Position numbers and translations under genes: made by a program
Part shown: piece by piece, positions 1,043 through 63,855 of the stretch
How positions within the stretch are numbered: position 1 is the stretch's first letter
How the letters are laid out: every line of letters starts with the position of its first letter
Notes under the pieces: model-generated
The model's database searches: none
Told to the model about the DNA's origin: nothing
Seen by the model: the letters and a program-made list of their open reading frames with translations, nothing else
DNA from: Cristatella mucedo
Taxonomy: Eukaryota > Bryozoa > Phylactolaemata > Cristatellidae
Reading direction: 5' to 3'
NCBI GenBank assembly: GCA_009760855.2
Contig: WPIO01000018.1
Coordinates: forward strand, 470,001-534,000
Length of the DNA stretch: 64,000 nucleotides

Positions 1043-15307
<14,265 letters not shown>

Positions 15308-15593: not shown

Positions 15594-16992
15594 TTCGAAT
15601 AATAATACATTTGATAAAGCACCCTCAGAGAACTCAATCTCTTTTTAGGCACTTTCCATTTGCTGCAAAGGATGCGTGATCAAGTGGTTAGTGGTAGCAT
15701 GCTTAATAAACAGCATTAATAACCTGGTTAGGGGTGACATGCACAGGGTCAGCATGCAAATATGATTAGTCGCAGCATGCAACAGTGCCAGCACTCACAA
15801 GCACAAAAAGCACAAATCAGAGGGACCTGCCAAATGCCGTCATAAATAGATGCCTTTTTAACTTATTTTTAAATGTGACCGAGTCAGGAAACGTCGCGAC
15901 GCAGGTCGGGAGTGAGTTCTAGGCTTTAGGAGCACACAAACTCAAGGTACGGTCTCCAAAGGATTTGAGGTTTGTACGAGGTATTAATAAAATGTTAGAT
16001 TCCGAAAAGCTGGTCGTACGAACTTGGCCTGGTAGGGGAGTAGACCTGATGGGTAGGCTGGAGCCAAAGAATGAAGGGATCTAAAAGTGAGCTATAAAAC
16101 CTTGAAGTCGAGGTGTTGCTTCACTGGTAGCCAGTGCAGGTCGGCAAGAAGTGGTGTTATGTGGCAACTGCAACACTCACGACAGACAAGCCGAGCTGCA
16201 GAGTTTTGCACCGGTTGTTAGTGCGTGATTGCACGTGCCGGTAGGCCAGCAAGCAGTGAGTTAAGAAACCAAAACGGGATGTCACACATGCATGGACCAA
16301 CTTAGATGTGGTATCCTTATCTAAACAAGCCCGAATTTTAGCAATGTTATGTAGCTGAAAGTAGGCAGACTTGATTGTGGAGCTGATGTGGTCGTCGAAT
16401 GAAAGGTCACTTTGGCACACGACACCTATATTTCATGCAGATTCAACAGGAGTTATGCTGGCAGCGCCGATTTTTAGCATTAGGTTTTTCAATTTCTGAA
16501 TCATAACTTGGCTTGCCCATAACTAGTAGGTTAGTTGCATCATCATTCAATTTAAGAAAACTTGCTGCCATCCATGTGCGAATGTCAGCAATACATGCAG
16601 CAAGGGAGTTGAGAGAATTCGACATGCTCGAGAGCTGGGAGGGATCAAAGCAAATGTACAACTGAGTGTCATCTGCATAGAAGTGAAAGCCTAGATTATG
16701 CTTGGCAATCACATCGGCAAGAGGGAGAGTACAGAAGTGAAAGCCTAGATTATGCTTGGCAATCACATCGGCAAGAGGGAGAGTATAAATTGTGAAAAGA
16801 AACGGGACCTAGCACGGAGCCCTGAGGTACCCCATATTTCAGAGGTACTTCTGATGATATTTGTCCGTTCACATCAATACTCTGGAGTCTCCCCCTGAGA
16901 TAGGATCTGAACCATTGCAGAGCAGTGCGAGTGATGTTCAGACGAGATGAGATACAGATCACCGAATCAGATACGACTTGTATACCAACCAA
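15594..16992 (-). mobile_element. LINE A copy, 5' truncated, with internal duplication
   Basis: On the minus strand it reads from RT domain (LQWFRSYLRGRLQSIDVNG; GVPQGSVLGPV; FHFYADDTQLY) through the C-terminus to the hairpin tail and an ATT-type end near 15600. Frameshifts are present, and a 54-bp tandem duplication lies at 16679-16786. Confidence 0.9.
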
Positions 16993-35640: not shown

Positions 35641-35644
35641 AGAC

Positions 35645-37135
35645 TAGTAATAATAACAATAATAATATTGCACTTGATAAAGCGTCTTCAGAGAACTTAA
35701 TCTCTTTCTAGGCGCTTTACATTTGCTGCAAAGTGATATGCAATAGAATAGTAAGTAAAATCATACTTGAAAAACAAACAAAATGAATAATATGGTTAGG
35801 GGTGACATGCACAAGGTCAGCATGCAAATGTGGTTAGTGGCAGCATGCACAGTGTCAGCACGCATAAGCACATCAAGGACAAATCACAGGGACCCACTAC
35901 ATGCTGTCCTAAATAGGTGTGTTTTTAAGTTTCTTTTAAATGTGGTCACGTCAGGGGATGTTCTGACGCAGGTTGGGAGGGAGTTCCAGGCTTTGGGAGC
36001 ATACGAGCTAAATGCACGGTCTCCAAAGGATTTAAGGTTTGAACGAGGTATTTCCAGACTGTTGGATTTCGAAAAGCGGGTGGTACGATGCTTGGCCTGA
36101 TTGGGGATTATATCTGAAAGATAGGCTGGAGCCATAGAATGAAGAGACATAAAAGTGAGCGACAAAACCTTGAAGTCAATCCGTTGCCTCACTGGTAACC
36201 AGTGCAGGTCGGCGAGAAGTGGAGTAATGTGGCGACTGCGACGCTCACGACAGACAAGCCTAGCTGCAGAGTTTTGCACCAGCTGCAATCGCCTGATCAC
36301 ACATGCTGGTAGGCCAGTAAGCAGTGAGTTGCAGAAGTCGAGACGGGATGTCACGAATGCATGGACCAACTTGGACGTGGTATCCTTATCTAAACAAGCC
36401 CGAATTTTAGCAATGTTATGAAGCTGAAAATAGGCGGATTTGACTGTGGAGCTGATGTGGTCGTCTAACGAGAGGTCGCTTTGGAATATGACACCAGATT
36501 TTGAGCTGATTCAACTGGAGATATGCTGGCAGAGCCAATTTTGAGAGTCAGTCTTTCCAATTTCTGAATCACACTGGGTTTGCCTATAACTAGTAAGTTA
36601 GTTTTTATCATCGCTTAGTTTTAGAAAATTGGCTGCCATCCATGTGCGGATGTCATCAATGCATGCAGCAAGTGAGTTTAGAGAATTTGAGGTGCTCGAA
36701 GGCTGGGAGGGATCAAAGCAAAGGTACAACTGAGTGTCATCCGCATAGAAGTGAAAGCCTAGATTGTGCTTGGCAATCACATCAGCAAGAGGGAGAGTAT
36801 AAACGGTGAAAAGGACCGGACCTAGCACAGAGCCCTGAGGTACTCCATATTTCAGTGGTACTTCAGATGATCTTTGTCCATTCACGTCAATACTCTGGAG
36901 TCTCCCACTGAGATAGGACCTGAACCACTGCAGAGCAGTGCCAGTGATGCCCAGGCGAGATGAGAGGTGCTCTAGAAGAACTTTGTGATCGATGGTATCA
37001 AAAGCTGCCGAAAGATCGAGCAAAACAAGAAGAAACACTCTACCCATATCTGCGTTCCTGAGTAGGTCGTTGTATACCCGAAGCAATGCTGACTCTGTGG
37101 AGTGATTAGCTCTAAAGCTAGCGATGAGCGAGTCG
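35645..37135 (-). mobile_element. LINE A copy, long, RT largely intact
   Basis: On the minus strand the RT contains ANHSTESALLRVYNDLLRN, then VLLDLSAAFDTIDHKVLLEH (domain A), GVPQGSVLGPVLF (B) and FHFYADDTQLY (catalytic YADD). One frameshift region near 36500-36600 separates this from an intact C-terminal frame (36369-35884; WNSLPTCVRTSP, then FKRNLKTHLF and a stop). The 3' UTR, hairpin tail and (ATT)n-like end follow. It is a L2/CR1-clade non-LTR retrotransposon; the endonuclease is absent. Confidence 0.92.
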
Positions 37136-37464
37136 CTCGCGCTGCAGTTACGTGGAGGTGCGTCGGACTTCGTTGATTTCGCCGCCGTGTAAGACAGAAG
37201 AAGAAGAAGAACATTAGGCAGCTGGCGTGTAGACGAAGGAACGTCAAAATAGTCCAAGCAGCCCGACGAAAGCGCCCTCTGCCTGCAGCGATGGGGCGGA
37301 TGTACGGCCGGGCAGGTAAGCTTAGGGTAGCCAGCGGTTGCTACAGTAATACCATTCGCTTCAATGTGTCTTGGGAGGTGATTCTTCTTTAGCGAGTCCT
37401 TAGCGACTGTATTGATATTGAGTTCTCTTAGCATGCTGAGTAGATGTGCTATTATTGCTATCAA
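37136..37464 (-). other. in-frame sequence fused upstream of LINE A RT
   Basis: The RT frame continues open for about 115 codons upstream to an ATG at 37464, with no similarity to the endonuclease/linker expected there. It may be LINE 5' sequence joined by internal deletion, or host DNA. Confidence 0.35.
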
Positions 37465-37529
37465 TATGGCCGCGCTGGTTTGCCTCTGTGGTCAAGTTGC
37501 TTGCCTTTAACGACCCAGGTCAATGTGAA

Positions 37530-37615
37530 CGTATTTGATGACCGACGTAGCCGGCTCGAGCCCCGTCGCATACGCGAAGCGCCGGGATAGAGATTGAGTT
37601 CTCTTCAGCGCCTCC
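37530..37615 (+). mobile_element. 5'-truncated SINE1
   Basis: B box cggctcgagccccg and tail gaagcgccgggatagagatt...cttcagcgcctcc. SINE2 follows directly. Confidence 0.75.
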
Positions 37616-37616
37616 A

Positions 37617-37795
37617 TAAAAAAATCCTAGCTGATTAAACAGCCTCGTTTTGTATAGCAACAGAAGAGCCTTTACGGCTATCACCACCGCTTGCAGTGGC
37701 GATGAAGGATCGCCCACCGCAGGAATCGAACCCACGACCTTGGAAGCGATGTCGTGAAAGCAACCGCCTTACCTAGTGTGCCATCACGGCTCCAT
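37617..37795 (-). mobile_element. SINE2 copy
   Basis: Nearly identical to the 29150 copy. On the minus strand it reads ggcacactaggtaaggcggt, then B box gtgggttcgattcctgc, body ggtggtgatagccgtaaagg and end ttaatcagctaggat. Confidence 0.88.
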
Positions 37796-37799
37796 ACAA

Positions 37800-38575
37800 A
37801 TGAAGTATATCTTAGTACGTTTTACTGAGAGTATAATCAACATTCACAAAAGTTAAATGAACGTCTCTTCACGGAAGAGCTACCCAGGCCTCTAAAGATG
37901 CACACAATTTTTATGACTAGCTTGGCGTTCTTACATATCAGTCTGTCATGCAGCTGTCACAAGCACCTCCCACACCACGGTCGCTACCCCGGGATACCTT
38001 GGAGCTGGCACAGCGACCCTGGTCACGGATTTAGAGTTCGGAAGCAACCAAGAAGGCAGGCTTAATTGCCCAATGCAAATAGTTGCTAACCGCAGAGAGC
38101 ACTAGCCGCGTGCGCTAGCGAGCGAGCGTGCGCGCTGGAGCGGAAGTAGCTCGCCCGGTCGGCGCCGCGGCCGCTGGGATGCGCTGCCCCCGACGGATCA
38201 GTGGGAAGCCGACGGACGCTCGCTGGAAAGGAGGCAGCCGATGCCGGGCGTCCGCCATCCGATGCCGGGCGTCCGGCGTTTTGCCGCGAGAGTGACCGGG
38301 CCGGGACGTGCTCGCCGGCGTTCGCGCGACGCGTCGCCACGCTAACCGCGGCGGCGAGTCGACGGCTGGATGGGCGAGAGTAGATGAGCTCGCCTATACT
38401 GCCGCCTGCCCCGCCCGCCCCAAGCCACTGTCGTAGGAGAAGAGTGCAGGGAAGAGAGGACGTCGAGATCGCCGCCGGGTACTCGACGGCGGCGGCGGTC
38501 TGTGGATCCAGGCGGCTCAGGATTCAGGGTAAGCAAGCAATAGCTACGACGGCCTCGGCGCTGATAGCCAGCATC
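37800..38575. other. start of the GC-rich domain
   Basis: Composition turns strongly GC/CpG-rich at about 38.09 kb. A direct repeat (gatgccgggcgtccg) lies at about 38240-38275. The open frames are compositional. Confidence 0.4.
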
Positions 38576-38579
38576 GCAA

Positions 38580-39862
38580 TGTAGCGCCCCGCTGGCCTTG
38601 GGTGAATTTGAGCACGAACAAGAGCTGTTCGGCGGTGGGCAAGAACTCCTTTGTCCTGGAGCAGTCAGCCAGAGAGGAGCGCCAGTGTGGTTAGAGACCA
38701 AGAGCTTAAGAGCAAGCCAGGAAGCTCTGAGACCAGCGGTGGCGATTCGGCCTTTAGAATTGGTCCGATACCCACGGGAGCTGCTGATTGATGTTGGCTG
38801 GCCTGTCAACCTCCGCCATCACTCTCTCCAAAAAGAATCGTCTGGAACCCATTCGCCATTCAAGCTGGACAGAGTGGACATTCCAGTGGCCTAGTGCTGG
38901 TATTAATTCCTTACCGTAATGGGACATGGTGTCGGGCCCAAAACCACTAAGCTCTTGCCCCATTGTCTCAGCTAAGTATTTAAGAGTCGAGCGACTCTCA
39001 CTCTTGGTCTTCGGTCTTTCGGTCTTTCTGGTCTTTTGTCCGGCTCCGCGCTTCGACACCGCCGGACTCGTTTCTCTGAAAGCGAGGGAGAAGGGCGGGC
39101 TGTTCGCCGGCGATTGACGGGACATGACGAGGCAGCTCTAGGAGGATTCGGTGGACTCCATCGAATACGGTCGTATCGCGCCGAGCCTGAATTTTGTGTT
39201 TCTTTTTGTGTTTTGTGTGTGCGCGCTAGCACGTGGTCTCGGCATAAGGATTTGCCGGTGCGAGCTAGACGTAGTTGGCGTGTGTTGAGTCCTAGTTCTC
39301 CGGTTAGGGTTTAGGCTCCAGTTTGGGCTCAATTTGGGCGGTTTTCCCAATTATAGATGTAAGTAGTTTAAGTGGGGAGACGTGTTTCCTCCGCAAGAGT
39401 GCTTGAGGTGGCGTGTTTGGAGTATTTCTGCCGCACTGGTGGAAATGGAGTACTAGTTCTCCGGTTAGGGTTTAGGCTCCAGTTTGGGCTCCGTCTTTTT
39501 GGGTCGTTCCCCATTATAGACGTAAGTAGCTTCAGTGTAGAGAAGTATTCCCTACGCAAGAGTGTTGGTGCTGTTGAGAACGTGCGACGAGTGTGGAGAT
39601 AAAACTGAGCTAGGAGCGCAGCGACTTTGTGTGCTTGCGAATAAAGCTCAGTGAAATCCCCAATTTGTGTGTCTCGCTTTCCAATTCACGCCGCAGACTC
39701 ACGAACCCCTTTAGTAACGGTAAGCAGGACAGCGCCAGAAACGTTCGTTCCGTGGCGGCCAGCTTATTTCGCGTAGGCGCGCACCGAATGGCATTAAGCG
39801 CCAGGTTACGCCGCTAGGTAAGCGGCAGGTCAAGCCTACGCCGCCGAGCCTTCGGCGTTACA
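38580..39862 (+). mobile_element. putative solo LTR
   Basis: A 1283-bp unit begins TGTAGCGCC and ends GGCGTTACA, imperfect inverted termini with the TG...CA form. A TATA-like tatttaag (38977-38984) and an AATAAA (39640-39645) lie in the order expected for U3-R. No target duplication was found and there is no adjacent primer-binding site or gag-pol, so this is a structural guess. Confidence 0.4.
39293..39602. repeat. 161-bp tandem duplication
   Basis: tagttctccggttagggttt begins at 39293 and again at 39454. Both copies continue with similar caatt/ccccattatagac and cgcaagagtg segments. It lies inside the LTR-like unit. Confidence 0.8.
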
Positions 39863-40269
39863 GTAAGTTATAGGCCAGGTCTCAGCCGAGGAGGTTGCAG
39901 TGCTCGTGGCTCGTGACGCGAGTCCGAGGAGTCCAAGGCCCGCCCGCTGCAGCCGGTCCGCGATTGCTCCACCACTAGCGGTCGCTGACCGATAAGCTCT
40001 TGATAAGCTCTCAGCATCGACAAGGTTGCGGGATCAGCTGACCTTTACTTGGCCTTTGCATTTCGAGGGCGGACGCTCGATCCGCCGGGGCTACCGAGGC
40101 GGTAGCCGCTACTGTGGCGCGGCGGCGGCGGCGATGTCGGTCAGTGGATGTATCGAGCGGTATGCTCACGCGCCGCAAAGCGATCGCTGCTGCCAGCCAC
40201 AAAACCGAGTCGACAACCTGAGCATGCCGAGAGCGAGCACGGATGCGCTAGCGATTAGTGAGTCGGCTA

Positions 40270-40415
40270 GCCTCTCTGTATCTCTGTGTGTCTCTTTATA
40301 TCTCTATCTATCTGTGTGTCTCTGTCTCTCTGTGTCTCCTGTCTCACTTTCTCTCTTTGCCTCAATGTCTCTCCCTTTCCCCGTCTCTGTTTCCCTGCCT
40401 CTCTCCGTGTGTCTC

Positions 40416-40481
<66 letters not shown>

Positions 40482-40500
40482 ATCTGTCTCTCTGTCTCCA
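40270..40500. repeat. pyrimidine-rich tract with (CT)n
   Basis: Irregular tctgtctctc from 40270, then pure (CT)n at about 40418-40478. Confidence 0.93.
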
Positions 40501-40682
40501 TCTCGCCCGTATCTCGTCGGCTAGTCTCTTTTCATGCGTATCTCGTGACCTTCATTGGCCGCCCGGTGGCTCTTACGTCGCGATTGAATTCACGCCCCTC
40601 AGTAAGAACTGAATAAGTGGACAGTTGCAGCAGAAGCGAAGTCGAATTACTCGCTCTATCTCCTTTGTGCGGAGATATATAT

Positions 40683-41130
40683 GTGCAGAACTGAACTGCT
40701 GAACTGCTGCATCAGTTTTAGCCTATTCGCGCCCTCAAGTCCTGTGTGGACAATAAATTAGCTGTTTTTTTCCTCCGCTTAAAGATCGTTGGCGACAGAA
40801 GCTTTAGCTCTGCAGGTCCTAGACTGTGGAGCTCACTTCCACAATTCTTACGCAACGACAACTACTCTCCTACTGCCGACTGTGGCTCATCCTGTTCAGC
40901 GGTTCTGAGCTGCTACTTCTATGCTACTCACTACCTCAACTGCTCTCCTGACTCTGCTATGCTTCCCACTTTCTCTTTGTTGCGTGAGACGAAGTCTGTT
41001 GGCTACCGAATGCTTACCGAAAGCAGCTCAGGCTGTGAGTGCGCTATACAAAACTTTCCTGCGTAACATCCACATGGTCTTTATGACTTTGTGGAGTTAC
41101 AGACAGAGATACATTACATTACATTACATG
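40683..41130 (+). mobile_element. LINE B 3' end
   Basis: Contains FLRLKIVGDRSFSSAGPRLW, then SSLPQFLRN, the 3' UTR, and ends with acattacattacattaca. Confidence 0.85.
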
Positions 41131-41179
41131 ACAAGGTGTAAGAACGGTATTTCAACTTTGGGCCGTATTGAGCGGCTTC

Positions 41180-41312
41180 TATGTATGGAATGGCACAGCT
41201 AATTTATTGTCGACACAGGACCTGAAGGGGCGAACAGGCTGAAACTGATGCAGCAGTTCAGCTAGGATATCTGCGATACAGTTTAGCAACCAGATCGCAC
41301 AGGCATACGTCA
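41180..41312 (-). mobile_element. LINE B fragment
   Basis: The minus strand encodes CAIWLLNCIADILAELLHQF, then QPVRPFRSCVDNKLAVPFH, the family's segment just upstream of the GDR motif. Confidence 0.7.
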
Positions 41313-41705
41313 CCAGGCTGCGTATCCTGCCGCCGCTGCTCCTTTGTAGGCTACCGTTCATAAGGGAGTGCTGTTTGGTGCGAACGGATCGCACCGACCG
41401 CGGCGTCGAGGAATTTGTCGACCCAAATCCGCTGGCGAACTTTTCGCACCGCGTCTGCACACTTTCGCGCGCGCGCTCGCGGGCCATTCGCGTTCCCGTC
41501 GGCTGCGCTAGGCTAGCTGTCCGCGGCGCGTGCGCCTCTCAGCGGCAACGTCTCATCTCGCCCCGACACGTCGTTCCCAATGCACATGGAAAAGCCAACG
41601 CCTCTTCACTTTTCCTAAACTGTACTAATTTCGAATCCAATACTCATCCGAGTGCCGTCGACGAGTGAAGTGAAGCCGAAAAAAGCAAGCCGTAAGTCGT
41701 GCACG

Positions 41706-41711
41706 TTTATT
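41706..41711 (-). promoter_or_regulatory. candidate poly(A) signal of the prohormone gene
   Basis: AATAAA on the minus strand, about 530 nt past the stop codon of the neurophysin exon. It is the nearest candidate seen. Confidence 0.4.
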
Positions 41712-42238
41712 CCAGCTCCAGCCGGTCGTATGGCGACTGCTGCGAAGCTTCGCGGCTGAGAGTGGCGCGAGCAGGCGGCGGGCCTACCGCGACAGCGGCC
41801 GCCCCGCCGCCCGCGCGATCAGCGCCTCGCCTTGCAAGCGGCTCGAGCCTTGGCTGCGGTCGCTCGAGGCCACGCAATGCGAGCAGAGGCGGCGACGACG
41901 CCCGTTCGTCGCTGCCGAGTCGGTTTGCCGAGCCGGCTCTCTCCGCCGCCGCCGCCGCCGATCGGCGGCGGCAGAGGGGTGCCCGACGAGCTTGGAAGAG
42001 CGCGGACGCGAACGCGTAGCGTGGACGAGCATGTCCGTTCTCAGGCGCGGGCTCGGCGCGTGCCCCCCCCCCGCTGGCGGCGGCTGCTGCTCGGCGGCTT
42101 GGCCAAACGGCCGGCGCTCTCAATCGGCGGCAAGGAAGGCGTCGGCGCCCCAGATGACGTGACGCCGTCGGAGCGACGACGTCGCTCGGCCTGGCGCCGC
42201 GACGGCCGGCCGGCTGCGCCCGGCGCCTGGCAGACGCC

Positions 42239-42276
42239 TTAGTCGACGTCGCAGGCGCCGTCTTCGAGGCAGCCAC
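42239..42276 (-). CDS. prohormone exon 3: neurophysin C-terminus (38 nt)
   Basis: The acceptor is tttgccag. The remaining two bases complete Gly, then [11 protein letters not shown] and TAA. The C-x6-C pair supplies cysteines 13 and 14. The exon is too short for ORF callers; its phase and motif make it convincing. Confidence 0.88.
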
Positions 42277-43361
42277 CTGGCAAACGACGGCGCGCGTGCG
42301 CGCGCACCGGTCGATGTGCACAGGCAAGGGCGACCGCTCTTGCATTCGCACGAGTTCAGCAAGTGGCTAGTAACGCTCGGTGAGTGGCTGGCAGCGCTTG
42401 GTGAAGCCGTTCGCCGGCAAGCGCTCAAGAAAGCGATTCGCAAGCTCAGTAAAGACTCAATCTAAGTGAAGGAGAAGCTAGCATCTAGGCTCGAGGAGAC
42501 GACGGCGGTGGCGGCAGCGGCGGCAGTGGCGGCAGCGGCAGCTGAAGGTGCCGCAGCTAAAGGCGACGCACCTTCGTTGCAGCAGAGGTGCCTGGTGGCG
42601 CACTCGCCGCCCGCGACCGCACGGCACGAGCCGGAGTAGGGCGGGCTGCACGGAGCTGGGCTGATTTGCTCTGCAAAGCAATACTTCGCCGCCTCCTTGC
42701 CCAGAATGCAGCCGAACGGCCCGCAGCACACTCGCGGCCCTCTGCAGGTTCCGCTCAAGCCGGGACCGCAGGACGGGCACTGCAAAGATCGCCGTGCATT
42801 AGGACAGCGCCCGGAAAGCACGCTAGGATCGCACGGTACGCAATACGCCGTCCTTCGCCGTCGCCGAGGCCCGGCCCCCGGCGCCGTGGATCGGCCTCGG
42901 CCCTCTGCGTTCGGCGGAGCGCGCGGCCCCACGATGCCGACGATTGGAGCGCTCCGTCGCTCCGCCGGAAGGAGCAGCCGAGGCCGATTCGTTGCACCGG
43001 GGTACTGCACTCGCCCCAGCGCAGCGAGGGCGAGCGCGAATGGAAGAAATCGACGCGGCGGCCGCGTACGCTGCCTCGCGAAATCCAATCGTGCCGCGGT
43101 CACTGACCAATCTCTGCCAAGGAGTGGCGCGCACGCTATCTCCCGAACGACGCGGTGCGTCGGCGGCCCGGCGAACTTCGCGTCCGCTCCCTCTCTCTCT
43201 CTCTCTCTCTCCTTCTCTTCTGTCTGTCTCTCCCCCTGTCTCTCATTCCTTCTCCTCTGCCTCTCTCTGTCTCTCTGTCCTTCGCCTCTCTCTCTCTCTC
43301 TTCCGTCTCTCTCTCTCTCTCTTCCGTCTCTCTCTCCCTCTCCTTCTCTCTCTCTCCCTCT

Positions 43362-43442
<81 letters not shown>

Positions 43443-43576
43443 CTCTCTCTCTCCCTCTCCTTCTCTCTCTCCATCTCCTTCTCTCGCTCTCGCTCTCTTT
43501 CACTCTCTCTCTCTCTCTCTTCCGTCTCTCTCTCTCTCTCTCTTCCGTCTCTCTCTCCCTCTCCTTCTCTCTCTCC

Positions 43577-43625
<49 letters not shown>

Positions 43626-44137
43626 GTCTCTCTCTCTCTCTTCCGTCTCTCTCTCCCTCTCCTTCTCTCTCTCCATCTCCTTCTCTCGCTCTCTTTCACT
43701 CTCTCTCTCTTCTCTCTCTTCCCCTCTTCTGTCTCTCTCTGTATACATATATCTCTCTTTCTGTTTGTCACCGCCTAGCGCTGGCCAAAACGTGCAGCTC
43801 CGCGGGAGAGCAGTGCTCGCGGACCGAGAGCGGCAACCGCCGAACGGGTCTCCGGAGACGCTCGACTCCAAAGCTCGGTTTCGCCCGCCAGGGACGCGCA
43901 GCGCCAAGGGAGGCCGCAAATTTCCACGTATCTCCAGCCGCGGCGGCGGCGTGCTTGACGTGCCTGCTCGACGACGACGGAGGCCGAGGCTTCGCCGCGC
44001 TTTCCAGTCAGCATCAGGCTGCCGAAGATCTTGTAGCACGACCTTATGTAGCACGGCGACGCCGCAGAGACGAGCAGCAGCAGCAGCAGCAGCGGAAGGA
44101 GAGCCCCCGCAGCGTCGCGGCCTCGGCTCGCCGCCAT
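42239..44137 (-). CDS. vasopressin/oxytocin-type prohormone (signal peptide, extended hormone, neurophysin)
   Basis: Secreted neuropeptide precursor; exons 44137-43964, 42779-42572 and 42276-42239 give 139 residues. Residues 1-28 are a signal peptide with a poly-Leu core ([16 protein letters not shown]). Residues 29-47 are [19 protein letters not shown]: a ring-forming Cys pair six apart, a ten-residue tail, an amidation Gly and a dibasic site. Residues 59-139 are neurophysin, starting CPSCGPG and ending [11 protein letters not shown], with all 14 cysteines in order (C.SC, C, CC, C, C, C, C, C, CC, C, C). The ATG has A at -3 and G at +4. Three exons, with the first break before CxxCGPG, follow the family gene structure; there is no copeptin. 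Odd features are the hormone itself (no Asn5, no Pro7, long tail) and a GC rather than GT donor for intron 1. It lies alone in a CpG-rich domain. Confidence 0.93.
42572..42779 (-). CDS. prohormone exon 2: neurophysin core
   Basis: The acceptor is tctttgcag and the donor is gtgcgt. The 208 nt encode [20 protein letters not shown] through [11 protein letters not shown] plus one base. That is 12 of the 14 neurophysin cysteines and the CGP.G..G.C.GP..CCG...GC signature. The corresponding vertebrate exon is of very similar length. Confidence 0.96.
43191..43735. repeat. 545-bp (CT)n-rich tract in prohormone intron 1
   Basis: Pure and interrupted CT with recurring ttccgtctctctctccctct and ccttctctctctccatctcc blocks. 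It causes the very long Ser/Leu and Arg/Glu frames on both strands, which are not genes. Confidence 0.96.
43964..44137 (-). CDS. prohormone exon 1: signal peptide and hormone
   Basis: Fifty-eight codons from ATG to [11 protein letters not shown]. The 11 residues after Lys-Arg lead into neurophysin. The 3' boundary is inferred from CAG/GCACGT, a GC-type donor, which joins in phase 0 to TGC of exon 2. Signal peptidase may cut after AA (leaving SPCYIRSC) or nearer the Cys; the exact site is uncertain. Confidence 0.88.
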
Positions 44138-44139
44138 GA

Positions 44140-45420
44140 TGTCGTCGAGTCGCGCGCGCGCGAGCTCTGGCTGCGCGTCGCTCCGACTTGCCGCCGCCGC
44201 CGACCGACGGCTCGCCGCCGCCGAGAGCGAGCGGCAGGCGCCCAGGCGATCGCCGGCGCTCGCTCGGTCCCGGAGCTCGATCGTTGGCTCTGCGCTCTGA
44301 CGCTCAGCGCTCTCTCGCTCCCCTCCTCAGTCGTAGCCGCAGCCGCCGACGCACAGCGGCGGCCAACGACTGTCGAGCGACTGCGCTCGCCCGCACCGCG
44401 GGCGCCGACCTTTATGGGTGACGCACGCCCACCGCCGCGCCGTAATCAGATGAACGCAGAAGTTTAGACGCTAATTATCAGCTACACACGTCGCCTCTAC
44501 GGCGACTGCCGTCGGCGACGCGAGCGCAAGCGCGTCGTCGGGCTCAGACGGGCTCAGACGCCGAACCGTCGCCGACGACGTCTGAGCCCAGCGAGCGCCG
44601 CCACCGCCTGGGCTGGGCTGCCCCGCCTCCGCGGCCGCTTGCGTTCAGGACGCGCCGCCCCCCACCGCATCCCTTACGCGATGCCCGCGCAGGAATAGCG
44701 AGCGAATGCCGCGATGGGGACGCGGTGGGGACGGCGCCGCTTTCGTCCGGCGCTCGCCTGAGGGGTGAGGCGGTCGCCGGTGCGACTCTCACTGGGGAGC
44801 ATCTCTCTCCGTGCGCGCCACCCCGCCGGCGAGGCTCGGCACGAAGTACGGCGAGCAGACGAGCGAGAACGCCGCCCAGTGACGATCGTCGGTGCAGGAA
44901 GGCCAGGAAGGGGGACGGACGGACGGACGGAAGGAAGGAAGGGAGATCAACCCATCGTTCGGGCACATCGAGACCCGTAGCGGCTCTCAGCCGTCTCATC
45001 GGTGGCACGATTCGGCGGCGGCGGACCCGAGTTTCCCTGCGGCGCCGCCGCCGACACGCCGGCGGTTCAGGGATTCGAGCCAGGGGGCGCTTGCTTGCGA
45101 GGCCGTTGCGACTGCTACAGTCGAGCTAGGCGACGGTGGCTTGCGCTTGCGCGAGTGGGCGCCTCCGGCTGCTCCGTCGGAGTGGCTCCGCCAGCTACTG
45201 CGCGACGTCGGCGAAGCTCGAAAAGCACTGAGCGAGCCACCGTGGTTATCTCTCCTGGCAGCCGCGATTCTTTTAACTATAATTTCGGGCGTCCACACTG
45301 GTGGAGAGGTGGAGCCGTTGCGCCAAAGCCGTAGGGGTGTGCGTTCGCGAGAGCATCGGCTCATTGCGGACGCCGGCGTGCGTGCTTCATCAGTAGGTTT
45401 TTGACTGATCGGCCGCCGGC
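44140..45420. other. CpG-rich DNA upstream of the prohormone gene
   Basis: Very high GC with many CpG, resembling a CpG island or promoter region. Overlapping long frames on both strands are Arg/Ala/Pro-rich, as expected of composition. Short runs such as ggacggacggacggaagg (44916-44940) occur. Confidence 0.5.
44410..44416 (-). promoter_or_regulatory. candidate TATA-like box of the prohormone gene
   Basis: CATAAAG on the minus strand, 273 nt upstream of the ATG. A TGCGTCA half-CRE-like motif (44418-44424) lies just before it. Position only; weak. Confidence 0.25.
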
Positions 45421-45439
45421 CCGCATCAATTAATTGCAA

Positions 45440-45920
45440 GTATACTTGTAATAATGATGACAATAAGAAGAAATTAGCACCCAAGAGAACTGAATCTATT
45501 TCTGGGCACTTGCACGTGCGCTGGAAATGAAGCATTCAATAGGTTGGCAGTAGCGCGAGCCGCGTCAGCGCGCATCAGCGCTCACAAAGGACGATGCGCG
45601 CGGACGCAGCTTTGCAAATGCTTTGGTTTGGGGCTTGAGTTGTTACACTTGTCGGGTAGCCAGCGCAGGTAGGCGAGAAGCAAAGCACTGCGGCAGTTGA
45701 CGCGTTTACTGAAGCGAAAAGTCTCACCGCAGTATTTTGCACCAGCTGCAAGCATCTTATCGGACGGGCCGACGGACCTGCAACTAGTGAGTTACTCTGC
45801 AAGTCGAGACGGCGTTCCGCGAATGCAAGCGCTGGCTACGCTACGCGGCGGTGCCCTCGTCTAAACAGCGACTACCATAATCCTTAGCGTCGGCGAAACG
45901 TGAGGTAAGAGCTGATTGTA
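45440..45920 (-). mobile_element. ancient GC-shifted LINE A remnant
   Basis: The minus-strand order matches LINE A: middle (tcgcggaacgccgtctcgac, ttgcaggtccgtcggc), QLVQ-type region (cagctggtgcaaaatactg), then the UTR and a tail with an aataagaag-like end near 45450. Many positions have gained G or C relative to other copies. Confidence 0.6.
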
Positions 45921-45924
45921 AGAG

Positions 45925-47695
45925 CTAATCTAACGCGAATATCTATCAGCGAAAGCGCGGTCTGTTTCGGACGCACCGCTTTTGCAGCTGTTGCGCGTGC
46001 ATTTTCGATTCCAGACGGAAAGCGCGCTTCTCTGCGCTTACTACAGTCAAACGCAAATCTCTTGCCTGTCTCGCCTCGCCCTCACCCTCTCGGAGATCGA
46101 TGCTTCGTTTCCGCCTGGGAAACTCGCTCGTAGGAGCGCGCACGCTCGATCGGTTCGGTAGCCACCAGTGCTGCGAGAGTGCTCGTCGCCACCGCCGCCC
46201 ACCAGAGGGCTAGGGCCGTCTGCGAGCGCCGGGCTCGCGTTTGATTAGGCGAACGCGCCGAGCGCTGGACCGTGCGTCGCCGCTCTCAGCCGATCGAGCG
46301 ATGGCGACAAAAAGCGACGACGAGGGTCAAGACGACGAACGCCGGCTGGCTTCCAGCGAACAGTCGGCGGTTTTGTGGCTTTGTAGGAACCGCCGCAGCG
46401 AGTCGCGACGGCGCGCCGCCGCTCGCGCCGCCTCGCGGTTGGACGCTGTGCGTGCGGGCCGCTTCCGGGATAGCGGAAAGAGCAGGCGCGCTCGTCGCGA
46501 ACCCGCAACACGCTCGCAGCTCTTTGAACAGGGCCGCGACAGGCCGCTAAGGAGCGAGCTTCCGGCCGCCTGACGATGGCGACCGCTTCTGAAGAAGAGC
46601 CGGCGGCTGGTGGAGTGGCGAGCGGTTTCCGCCGCCAGCGCCCGCGATGGCGCCGAGTCGAGGAGAACTCAAATGAGGCTGCACTGCTTCGCCTTCGCAG
46701 GCGAAGATGACCGCCGAGCAGGCCTGGCGGCGGGTGCTGCGCAGCGCTGCTGATGGCGACGGAGCGACGTCTCGACCGCCGGCGGCGGCGCTGGGAAGGC
46801 TGTGCAGGCGCTCCATTCTTCGCAAGCTAAAACGCGCAGCAGCGAGCCAGCGGCCGCTGTGCGGAATCAGCCTGATGGAGCTCGAGCCGCCGTGCGTCCG
46901 GTAGCGGCCGCTCGCCGTCCGGCAGAGCTTAAAGCCGACTTAACAGGTGTACTTACGGAAACCGATACTGGTCATCTCGACTGTGACGCTCGCCGGAGGC
47001 GTGCGAGTCCGGCGCGAAAAGAGCCACGCAAAGTGAAGCGATGACGCAGCGATGCGCGACAGGCGGCGCCGCCGCCAAAAGGTTCGAAAGGCAAACGCGC
47101 CCTTCTTCGGGTCGCGGTCGCATTCCGGAACCTTCCGAAATCCTTCCGTGCAGTCTCGCGCACCCTCGCGCTCCAGCAACGCCTCTGCCGGCGAGAGCAG
47201 CGCTCGAAATCGGCGGCCACGTGTCGACACTGATCCGTCGTTCGCGGCGTGCGAGCGCCGAGCAGGCAACGGACTCGCTCGCGGAAGGAAGGCGAGAACG
47301 GACGCGCCGCGGAAGGCGAGTGCGCGGCTCGCTGCTGCGGAAATGCCACTTTGGGCGTCCGCGCGGCGGCGCGAGTACGGCACGCGCGCGCGCGCTCCCC
47401 GATCGAGCTCGCTGCCGCCTCGGCTGCTGCCACCGCGGCGGCGCGCAGATGCTCGACGCAGAGGTGGGCGGGTGTAGAAGGTCGCGAGATCTGTGACGGC
47501 CTCCGCTCGCAGCTTCGAGCGTCGCCAGGGTGACAAGTCTCGCAATCGGCACCCCGACGGTGACTGGCGGACGGTATACGGCATCCGCATGGGCGGCGTT
47601 TTATTCGTGCGGCGTTTTAATCGTGTGGCGTTTTTTCGCTGCTTTTTCGGGGCGAGGAGGCGAAAGCAGTGGGTCGAGCGCTGCCTCGCGTTCAA
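45925..47695. other. CpG-rich DNA, no gene recognised
   Basis: Extreme CpG density. Frames of up to 257 codons exist on both strands at once, are Arg/Ala/Ser-rich and carry no domain. A promoter or first exon of an unseen gene is possible. Confidence 0.4.
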
Positions 47696-47697
47696 CC

Positions 47698-48012
47698 CTC
47701 TCTCCCTCTCCATTCCTATGCCTGTCTATCTGTCTATCTGTCTGTCTGTCTGTTTGTTTGTCTGTCTATCTGTTTTTCTTCCTGTTTGCCTGTCTCTCAG
47801 TCTGTCTGTCTGTCTGCCTGCCTGCCTGTCTTTCTTTCTCAACTCTCACCACTCTCTGTCTCTCTCTCTCTTTTTGCCCTCTGTCTCTCTCTCTCGTTCG
47901 CTGTCTCTCTGTCTCGGTCTCTCTCTCTCTCTCCCTCTTCGATCTCTGTCTCTCTTCGCTCGCTCTCTATGTCTCTCTTTCTCTCTCGCTGTCCCTCTCT
48001 CTCTTTCTCGAT
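47698..48012. repeat. (TCTG)n and (CT)n degenerate tract
   Basis: tctatctgtctgtctgtttg and related units give way to ctctctgtctctctct. About 310 bp of pyrimidine-rich sequence. Confidence 0.92.
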
Positions 48013-56277: not shown

Positions 56278-57755
56278 TCCAGTCTGGCTGTAGAGCTAAT
56301 CACTCCACATAGTCAGCATTGCTTAGCCTATAAAACGACCTACTTAGGAATGCAGAGGTGGGTAGAGTGTCTCTGCTTGTTTTGCTTGATCTTTCGGCAG
56401 CTTTTGATACCATCGATGACAAAGTTCTTCTAGAGCACCTCTCATCTCGCCTGGGCATCACTGGCACTTCTCTGCAGTGGTTCAGGTCCTATCTCAGTGG
56501 GAGACTCCAGAGTATTGACGTAAATGGACAAAGATCATCTGAAGTACCTCTGAAATATGGAGTACCTCAGGGCTCCGTGCTAGGTCCGGTTCTTTTCATG
56601 GTTTATACTCTCTCTCTTGCTGATGTGATTGCCAAGCACAATCTAGGCTTTCACTTCTATGCGGATGACACTCAGTTGTACCTTTGCTTTGATCCCTCCC
56701 AGCCTTCGAGCACCTCAAATTCTCTCAACTCACTTGCTGCATGCATTGATGACATCCACACATGGATGGCAGCCAATTTTCTAAAACTAAACAATGATAA
56801 AACTAACTAACTAATCATCGGCAAACCCAGTGTGATTCAGAGATTGGAAAGGCTGACTCTCAAAACTGGCTCTGCCGGCATATCTCTAGTTGTATCAGCT
56901 CGAAATCTAGGTGTCAAATTTCAAAGTGACCTCTCGTTAGATGACCATATCAGCTCCACAGTCAAATGCGCCTATTTTCAGCTTTATAACATTGCTAAAA
57001 TTCGGGCTTGTTTAGATAAGGATACCACGTCTAAGTTGGTCCATGCATTCGTGACATCCCGTCTCGACTTCTGCAAGTCACTGCTTACTGGCCTACCAGC
57101 GTGTGCGATCAGGCGATTGCAGCTGGTTGCAAAACTCTGCAGCTAGGCTTGTCTGTCTTGATCGTCGCAGTCGTCACATTACTCCACTTCTCGCCGACCT
57201 GCACTGGCTACCAGTCAAGCAACGGATTGACTTCAAAGTTTTGTCGCTCACTTTTAGGTCTCTTCATTCTATGGCTTCAGCCTATCTGTCAGATATACTA
57301 CCCCATCAGGCCAAGCATCGTACCACTCGCTTTTCGGAATCCAACAGTCTACAAATACCTCGTACAAACCTCAAATCCTTTGGAGACCGTGCATTTAGTT
57401 CGTATGTTCCCAAAGCCTGGAACTCCCTCCCGACCTGCATCAGAACATCCCCTGAACTGACCGCATTTAAAAGGAACTTAAAAACACACCTATTTAGGAC
57501 AGCATTTAGTGGGTCCCTGTGATTCGCCCTTGATGTGCTTATGGGTGCTGACACTGCTTCATGCTGCCACTAACCACATTTGCACGCTGACCCTGTGCAT
57601 GTCACCCCTAACCATATTATTCGTTTTGTCTATTTTTCAAGAATGATTTTACTTACCATTCAATTGCATTTCACTTTGCAGCAAATGTAAAGCGCCTATA
57701 AAGAGATTAAGTTCTCTGAGGGCGCTTTATCAAGTGCATTTTTATTATAATTATT
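56278..57755 (+). mobile_element. LINE A copy, best-preserved RT (5' truncated)
   Basis: A non-LTR retrotransposon of L2/CR1 type. The RT covers domain A (LLDLSAAFDTIDD), B (GVPQGSVLGPVLF) and the catalytic YADD (FHFYADDTQLY) at 56358-56810. It continues in other frames to the conserved C-terminus (GDRAFSSYVPKAWNSLPTC) and stop at 57522. A ctaactaa expansion at about 56800 and a shift near 57100 break the frame. The 3' UTR ends in the hairpin tail (taaagcgcctataaagagat; gagggcgctttatcaagtg) and an AT-rich end about 50 bp before the GAIN-like exon. Confidence 0.94.
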
Positions 57756-57808
57756 ATTAATAGTTTTAATGTATTTTTCTTGAATGAAGTATTCCTTCTA
57801 CACTCTAG

Positions 57809-62975: not shown

Positions 62976-63855
62976 TGAGAAGTGATAACCAGCTCTACCA
63001 GCATATCTCCTGCTGAATCTGCAAGAAATCTAGGCGTCATATTCTTAAGCGACCTCTCACCGGACGACCACATCAGCTCCACCGTCAAGACTGCATACTT
63101 TAAGCTACATAGCATTGCTAAAATTTGGGATTTTTTAGAGAGGGATACCACATCTTAAGTTGGTCAATGCATATTTGACATCCCGTCTTGACTTCTGTAG
63201 GTCACTGCTTACTGGTCTACCGGCCTCTGCACCCAGGTGCTTACAGCTGGTGCAAAACTCTGCAGCAGGCTTGTCTGTCGTGAGCGTCGCAGTTGTCACA
63301 TCACACCACTTCTCGCCGACTCCCTTTCAAGCAACGCAGTAAATTCAAGGTCACTTTTAGGTTCCTTCATTCTCTGGCTCCAGCCTACCTTTCAGATCTA
63401 CTGCCCCACCAGGCTAAGCATCAAAACCATAAGCTTTTCAGAATGTAACCGTTTACCCATACCTCGTACGAACCCCGAATCCTTCGGAGACCCTGCCTTT
63501 AGTATGCTCCCAAAGCCTGGAAATCACTCCCAACTTCCGTCGCGATATCTCCTGACTTGTCCATATTTAAAGAGAAACTAAAAAATGCATCTATTTATCA
63601 CCGCATTTAGTGGGTCCTGTGATTGCCTATTTATGTGCTTATGCGTGCTGACACTGTGCATGGCGCAAGTAGCAAACTTACATGCTGACCCTAAGCATGT
63701 AACCCCTAACCGTGTTATTTGTGCTGTTTATTGAGCATGATACCACTAACCGTTCAATCGTGCTTCCTTTGCAGCAAATGTAAAGTGCCAAGAAAAAGAC
63801 TGAGTTCTCTCAGGGGCGCTCTATCAAATGTACTAATATTATGATTATTATAACC
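62976..63855 (+). mobile_element. LINE A 3' half, decayed
   Basis: Matches the RT C-terminal part (tcttaagcgacctctcaccg; acatcccgtcttgacttctg; tgctcccaaagcctgg), the 3' UTR (gtgcttatgcgtgctgacac) and the tail (cagcaaatgtaaagtgccaa...ggggcgctctatcaaatg). Confidence 0.88.

Follow-up and report, generated by a model that had tools for sequence, protein, structure and literature searches.

Results

Organization of the gene

The window (the whole stretch of DNA analysed, 64,000 nucleotides) carries a gene for a vasopressin/oxytocin (VP/OT)-type precursor on its minus strand, at 44137-42239. As read from the sequence, three exons join without a frame break into 420 bases, stop included, and 139 residues. 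The features of the gene are, in the direction of transcription:

44411-44416, minus strand: TATA-like CATAAA upstream of the gene (weak evidence)
43964-44137, minus strand: coding exon 1, with signal peptide, Ser-Pro, hormone, Gly-Lys-Arg and linker, and a GC donor at its end; the architecture is that of the homologue P0001 (see below)
44060-44137, minus strand: signal peptide, residues 1-26, with a putative cleavage site; the 20-residue stretch ahead of Cys1 contains 15 hydrophobic residues
44054-44059, minus strand: Ser-Pro, residues 27-28, before Cys1, common to P0001
44006-44053, minus strand: codons of the predicted 16-residue hormone, read from the sequence; the counterpart in P0001 is CYIKSCFRLLGSLHLS
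43997-44005, minus strand: Gly-Lys-Arg amidation and cleavage site, identical in P0001
42780-43963, minus strand: intron 1, 1184 bases, phase 0, GC-AG, preceding neurophysin cysteine 1
42572-42779, minus strand: coding exon 2, neurophysin cysteines 1-12; its unspliced frame matches Pfam Hormone_5 at E 1.3e-13
42669-42671, minus strand: Glu95, the pocket glutamate, aligned with the bovine neurophysin Glu
42277-42571, minus strand: intron 2, 295 bases, phase 1, GT-AG, preceding neurophysin cysteine 13
42239-42276, minus strand: coding exon 3, neurophysin cysteines 13-14 and stop
41706-41711, minus strand: candidate polyadenylation signal AATAAA

The spliced precursor matched Pfam Hormone_5 at E 9.2e-15 and 55.7 bits (cut-off 27.2) over profile positions 2-79 of 79, and the 14 cysteines of its neurophysin follow the standard order. 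In a phmmer search of the PDB, neurophysins were the only relatives by sequence (eight distinct sequences at E ≤ 0.001, best E 1.4e-11). The initial annotation had described a complete three-exon precursor with a 14-cysteine neurophysin; this is seen in the sequence and is borne out by the Hormone_5 match and the PDB neurophysins. The two introns of the gene model, ahead of neurophysin cysteines 1 and 13, match the intron positions of vertebrate genes. Its three coding exons agree with the state described as usual for VP/OT-type precursor genes (PMC7181382). Nearly half of intron 1 is occupied by a GA/CT microsatellite of 550 bases (about 43187-43740); many other long dinucleotide repeats are found across the window.

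The donor of exon 1 is GC, not GT (CAG/GCACGT), and its use leaves Gln directly before the first neurophysin cysteine. With a simple score that uses only the bases around GT or GC and imposes no penalty on GC, this donor reached 5.7 bits between about 44018 and 43758, against 1.8 for the runner-up, and all GT sites scored zero or less. A hidden exon encoding a canonical hormone was considered and rejected: across the 64 kb, none of the six unspliced frames contains a canonical nonapeptide or a second motif of the form C-4-C-tail-G-basic-basic. In sequence simulated from the GC-rich region, this motif alone arose at a rate of 0.16 per 8 kb. When a preceding 20-mer with 13 or more hydrophobic residues was also required, it occurred in none of 300 simulated pieces of 8 kb; the actual gene has 15 such residues.

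The predicted hormone

Behind a leucine-rich signal peptide, the precursor contains a single hormone with Cys1 and Cys6, as is typical of the family, in which such a hormone lies directly behind the signal peptide; here up to two residues, Ser-Pro, may stand between them. Also typical is the Gly and dibasic site that follows, GKR both here and in P0001. The hormone consists of the ring C-Y-I-R-S-C, presumably closed by a Cys1-Cys6 disulphide, and a ten-residue tail up to Gly-Lys-Arg. It departs from the canonical nonapeptide (C-x-x-x-N-C-P-x-G-amide) in having Ser5, Tyr7 and 16 residues; the replacement of Asn5 by Ser and Pro7 by Tyr and the ten residues before the amidation Gly, all reported in the initial annotation, are confirmed in the sequence. 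Pfam Hormone_4 matched neither the window precursor nor P0001, nor the Bugula neritina precursor P0002. Because the canonical mussel precursor P0008 was also without a match and only the beetle P0042 gave one, this model does not discriminate.

A homologue with the same extended hormone

A word-based search of 5.8 billion proteins with the spliced precursor returned 48 candidates, among which P0001 was the sole match at E ≤ 0.01 (E 3.7e-50, 67% identity over 81% of the query). P0001 has 144 residues and comes from a 1,118-base contig of source 'lgn'. It is one uninterrupted frame, ...VAAGSP-CYIKSCFRLLGSLHLS-GKR-SDAAYAKK-neurophysin, and, because the frame is single and open, it presumably derives from a transcript; its divergence (67% identity) suggests a second species. 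A search with A1 gave 1,314 candidates, none of which was a hit except P0001, and A1 scans of viral and genome contigs gave 27 and 58 pattern matches, respectively, with no relatives among them.

P0001 and the window precursor share the same architecture, with Ser-Pro before Cys1 and the extended hormone and GKR in the same place, but differ in the signal peptide and in the linker (8 residues in P0001, 11 in the window precursor). Since in P0001 the exon content is the same and runs on into a neurophysin, exon 1, with its GC donor, is supported independently. As one of two outcomes that would speak against an extended hormone, the initial annotation had named a canonical nonapeptide joined to the neurophysin; in P0001, a probable transcript, the extended hormone is joined instead. 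The span from CATAAA to AATAAA in the window would yield a message of about the size of the P0001 contig, which is only suggestive.

The rings of the two hormones are identical at five of six positions, with the consensus C-Y-I-R/K-S-C. The ten-residue tails align without a gap and have four identities, four conservative exchanges (Y/F, K/R, I/L and T/S), one neutral exchange (F/L) and one that is not conservative (Met/His). Their BLOSUM62 score is 24, compared with a permutation mean of -5.5 (p 0.0003; 0.03% of 200,000 tail permutations), whereas the linker next to the tail scores -5 and its alignment contains a gap of three residues. Charge is kept between the hormones, as R4 is replaced by K and K8 by R. 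In the neurophysins, 61 of 81 residues are common. A conserved tail next to a poorly aligned linker is, for the two protein sequences compared, a pattern suggestive of purifying selection, and the extended hormone seems to be a genuine variant, kept by selection, of a hormone that is otherwise very conserved. The non-canonical, C-terminally extended and probably amidated hormone proposed in the initial annotation is thus supported by the neurophysin and by the retention of the same hormone in P0001.

Hormones of other neurophysin precursors

A four-row query alignment (the window precursor, P0001, Bugula and Lymnaea) produced 2,527 candidates, 62 of which were neurophysin hits. Because of these seeds, the sample leans towards molluscs and beetles; the named records include a few fish, one annelid and one brachiopod. 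A recognisable hormone with Gly-Lys-Arg was present in 49 of the 62, the other 13 being left out of this count, and 47 of the 49 are nonapeptides that carry Asn5, Cys6 and Pro7. P0001 (16 residues) and the B. neritina AVP P0002 (CYIRTCDLGIL, 11 residues) are the exceptions. Pro at position -1 of the hormone was found in one of the 49, namely P0001, and in none of the 47 canonical hits. This Pro leaves the exact N terminus of the window hormone uncertain. The hormone or near spellings of it occurred in none of 5.39 million open papers, a set that lies apart from subscription papers and supplements; rings of known extended forms, or spellings close to them, turned up in five papers.

The neurophysin carrier

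The pocket glutamate is kept in 39 of the 45 rows of alignment A5 (45 of the 62 hits), including P0001. We take the bovine residue aligned with Glu95 to be Glu47; Glu47 of neurophysin pairs with the amino group at the N terminus of the hormone. An AlphaFold2 model of P0001 built with 45 sequences had a mean pLDDT of 77 and a pTM of 0.49. Its neurophysin part (residues 61-140) was mostly confident, with means of 71-89 over ten-residue blocks, and superimposed on bovine neurophysin 1jk6 with a TM score of 0.90 by target length and 1.2 Å. All ten PDB structures matched at E ≤ 0.001 were neurophysins. Residues 41-51, which comprise 11 of the 16 hormone residues, had pLDDT values below 50. The predicted structure, which is of P0001 and not of the window protein, confirms the carrier fold as modelled and is silent on the hormone tail.

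Phylogenetic placement

Two neurophysin trees were computed, the first with 34 rows (37 hits and the window were prepared and four rows were lost to a pattern filter) and the second with 28 of the 62 hits, the window and bovine neurophysin. The window and P0001 neurophysins grouped at 100/100, and the branch that carries them is very long, with 3.53 and 3.37 changes per column in the two trees. AU tests, applied to clades picked after the first tree had been seen, rejected no placement of this pair: p was 0.34 with Bugula, 0.49 with vertebrates, 0.45 with insects, 0.56 with spiralians minus Bugula and 0.34 with spiralians plus Bugula. Common descent of the extended forms of the window and of Bugula is accordingly neither shown nor excluded. 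A bryozoan origin, suggested by the ring of Bugula and by a short CCG-x-FGC stretch, was considered and set aside: the stretch is widespread (bivalves, beetles), and the trees neither support nor reject such an origin. The combination of Arg/Lys4 with Lys/Arg8 weakly recalls spiralian hormones.

Surroundings of the gene

Pfam was run on 145 of the 198 filtered open reading frames of the window. Reverse transcriptase was found in four, and there were single matches to a Cys-loop receptor ligand-binding domain and a zinc finger; three further weak matches are probably due to chance. No tRNA gene was found in the window, and Rfam gave no match at gathering scores. An exon of a Cys-loop (neurotransmitter-gated) ion channel lies at 12086-12277 on the minus strand, the better of two stretches matching Neur_chan_LBD (whole-protein E 7.6e-20 for one frame with stops read as X); the same domain was matched at E 3.1e-12 in one of the 145 open reading frames. 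Another open reading frame at 11041-11466 (minus strand) resembles, by eye, a further exon of the channel.

A LINE-type retroelement, perhaps of a CR1/L2-like clade, is apparently present in several copies that are about 64-95% alike (35643-37491, minus strand; 56284-57764, plus strand; 15705-16952; 8895-9157; 62987-63584), and the RVT_1 matches fall in four open reading frames. Around the hormone gene (36001-48000), GC content reaches 0.53-0.64 and the observed/expected ratio of CpG is 1.0-1.3. Positions 1-24000 have a ratio of 0.54-0.73 and an excess of TpG; the contrast looks as if the two regions were differentially methylated.

Discussion

The locus holds a real gene of a known family, and its hormone is a distinct, conserved variant. 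Very probably it is a functional VP/OT-type precursor gene in which the part of the hormone outside the ring has been remodelled, and we read the change as replacement of the Pro-X-Gly-amide tail by a conserved, probably amidated tail of ten residues. VP/OT hormones are among the most conserved animal peptides, as illustrated by the 47 of 49 that here keep Asn5, Cys6, Pro7 and a length of nine. A conserved variant that lacks Asn5, Pro7 and Gly9 and is longer by seven residues offers a natural experiment on the parts of hormone and receptor that can vary jointly. It separates the ring, which is kept and would dock in neurophysin and deep in the receptor, from a tail that is free to change.

The strongest competing account, which we regard as possible though short of probable, is that the gene is one of two VP/OT paralogues, the divergent copy being in the window and a canonical nonapeptide gene elsewhere in the genome. 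The use of hormone and receptor would then be subdivided, as with nemertean paralogue 2. Two vasotocin-related paralogues are described for linguliform and craniiform brachiopods, phoronids and a palaeonemertean, one nemertean paralogue being without its cysteines (PMC8557429), and the very long branch of the window and P0001 neurophysins fits such a history. The presence of a single copy within the 64-kb window speaks against it but is not a strong counter-argument, and the account is compatible with the molecular reading preferred here. That the neurophysin instead carries a sister peptide of NG/NPS/CCAP type is very unlikely: echinoderm NG-peptide precursors are also described as having neurophysin domains (PMC8557429) and the peptide does lack Asn5 and Pro7, but an N-terminal Cys1, Cys6, Tyr2-Ile3 and a basic residue 4 make a VP/OT ring, and the VP-like peptide reported from Bugula has the nearly identical ring CYIRTC.

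Two further explanations deny that the hormone is functional or belongs to the gene. According to one, exon 1 is a chance frame beside a real neurophysin exon, and the true first exon, with a canonical nonapeptide, lies elsewhere. Exon 1 does require a GC donor and sits in a GC-rich, repeat-rich region in which long open frames are common. Against this, P0001 fuses the same exon content to neurophysin, the window has no canonical motif in any of its six unspliced frames, and none of the 300 simulated 8-kb pieces combined signal and motif; P0001 and the simulation rule out a chance frame for practical purposes, and we hold it to be extremely improbable. A decaying gene with a drifting hormone could account for the loss of the near-invariant Asn5, Pro7 and Gly9 together, but the frame is intact, the 14 cysteines and usable splice sites are retained, and the 61 of 81 neurophysin residues and the conserved tail held in common with P0001 disfavour it; a pseudogene is scarcely credible.

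On the preferred reading of a working, remodelled gene, maturation of the precursor can be envisaged as follows. In the secretory granule, the Cys1-Tyr2-Ile3 end would dock in the neurophysin pocket, whose glutamate is kept. A convertase would cleave after Lys-Arg, the basic residues would be trimmed, and the Gly would be converted to a C-terminal amide. The product would be a 16-mer amide with a disulphide ring. The Ser-Pro before Cys1 might be removed by signal peptidase or be left as an X-Pro for trimming by a dipeptidyl peptidase. Uncleaved, it would block the amino group said to bind neurophysin. Signal peptidase disfavours Pro at -1, dipeptidyl peptidases remove X-Pro, and Ser-Pro is found in both precursors, so it is reasonable to guess at an N-terminal trimming step. 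The hormone has Cys-Tyr-Ile at residues 1-3 in common with oxytocin, and since these residues and the pocket glutamate are kept, a hormone with a free N terminus should still dock in the carrier.

The ring would still insert deeply into the receptor, as in OT/VP receptors, and the aromatic residue 7, basic residue 8 and hydrophobic tail may form novel contacts with a co-evolved receptor, at its extracellular loops and N terminus. In the OTR-oxytocin structure as described in PMC9293896, the ring is buried, residues 7-9 are directed towards the loops, and Asn5 and Pro7 lie against ECL2 and ECL3. Because exactly Asn5, Pro7 and the residues that follow have changed and Tyr2-Ile3 are kept, contacts at the receptor surface were probably rebuilt, and a receptor pharmacology unlike that of Pro7-Gly9-amide hormones is a reasonable expectation. 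The 145 open reading frames scanned in the window include no match to a VP/OT-type receptor. Tentatively, and with somewhat less than even confidence, we picture an animal lineage in which the hormone bears a conserved, hydrophobic, amidated 'address' of ten residues (aromatic, basic, two hydrophobics, Gly-Ser-Leu-x-Leu-Ser/Thr), the loop surface of the receptor has been rebuilt and trimming of Ser-Pro is an extra maturation step.

With 16 residues and without Asn5, Pro7 or Gly9, the hormone is the longest extended VP/OT-type form found in these searches; among the published extended forms compared (Styela, Ciona, C. elegans and Bugula), none has 16. Extension had been thought in the initial annotation to be known from tunicates only, which is wrong, as C. 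elegans CFLNSCPYRRY-NH2 and Bugula CYIRTCDLGIL-GKR are also extended; nor does amidation set the hormone apart from tunicates as such, since the Styela 14-mer is amidated and the form from Ciona is not. Loss of Pro7 is described for Ciona and Saccoglossus as well (PMC7181382). A cone-snail peptide listed in PMC10136000, one of the five papers with rings of this kind, has eight residues and is not extended. The tails of Styela and Ciona are unlike that of the window by eye, and the 62 hits include no record named as tunicate. The Styela plicata 14-mer amide CYISDCPNSRFWST (PMC7181382) resembles the hormone in being extended and amidated, in its CYI ring start and in lacking Asn5, but it retains Pro7 and has a tail of eight that is unlike in sequence. 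Ciona vasopressin CFFRDCSNMDWYR is, as presented in PMC7181382 and PMC8135067, likewise extended, without Asn5 or Pro7 and with Arg4; it differs in having 13 residues, no amidation and an unlike tail. Nematocin of C. elegans, CFLNSCPYRRY-NH2, is described as extended and amidated with Ser5, but has 11 residues and retains Pro7 (PMC7181382). The B. neritina AVP, or BnVP-like, is reported as an extended VP-like peptide (PMC4990251); like the window hormone it has lost Asn5 and Pro7 and exceeds nine residues, its ring is CYIRTC against CYIRSC, and it is followed by Gly-Lys-Arg and a 14-cysteine neurophysin, but it has 11 residues, its tail is not clearly alignable, and its neurophysin is about 33% identical, with Ser where the pocket Glu aligns.
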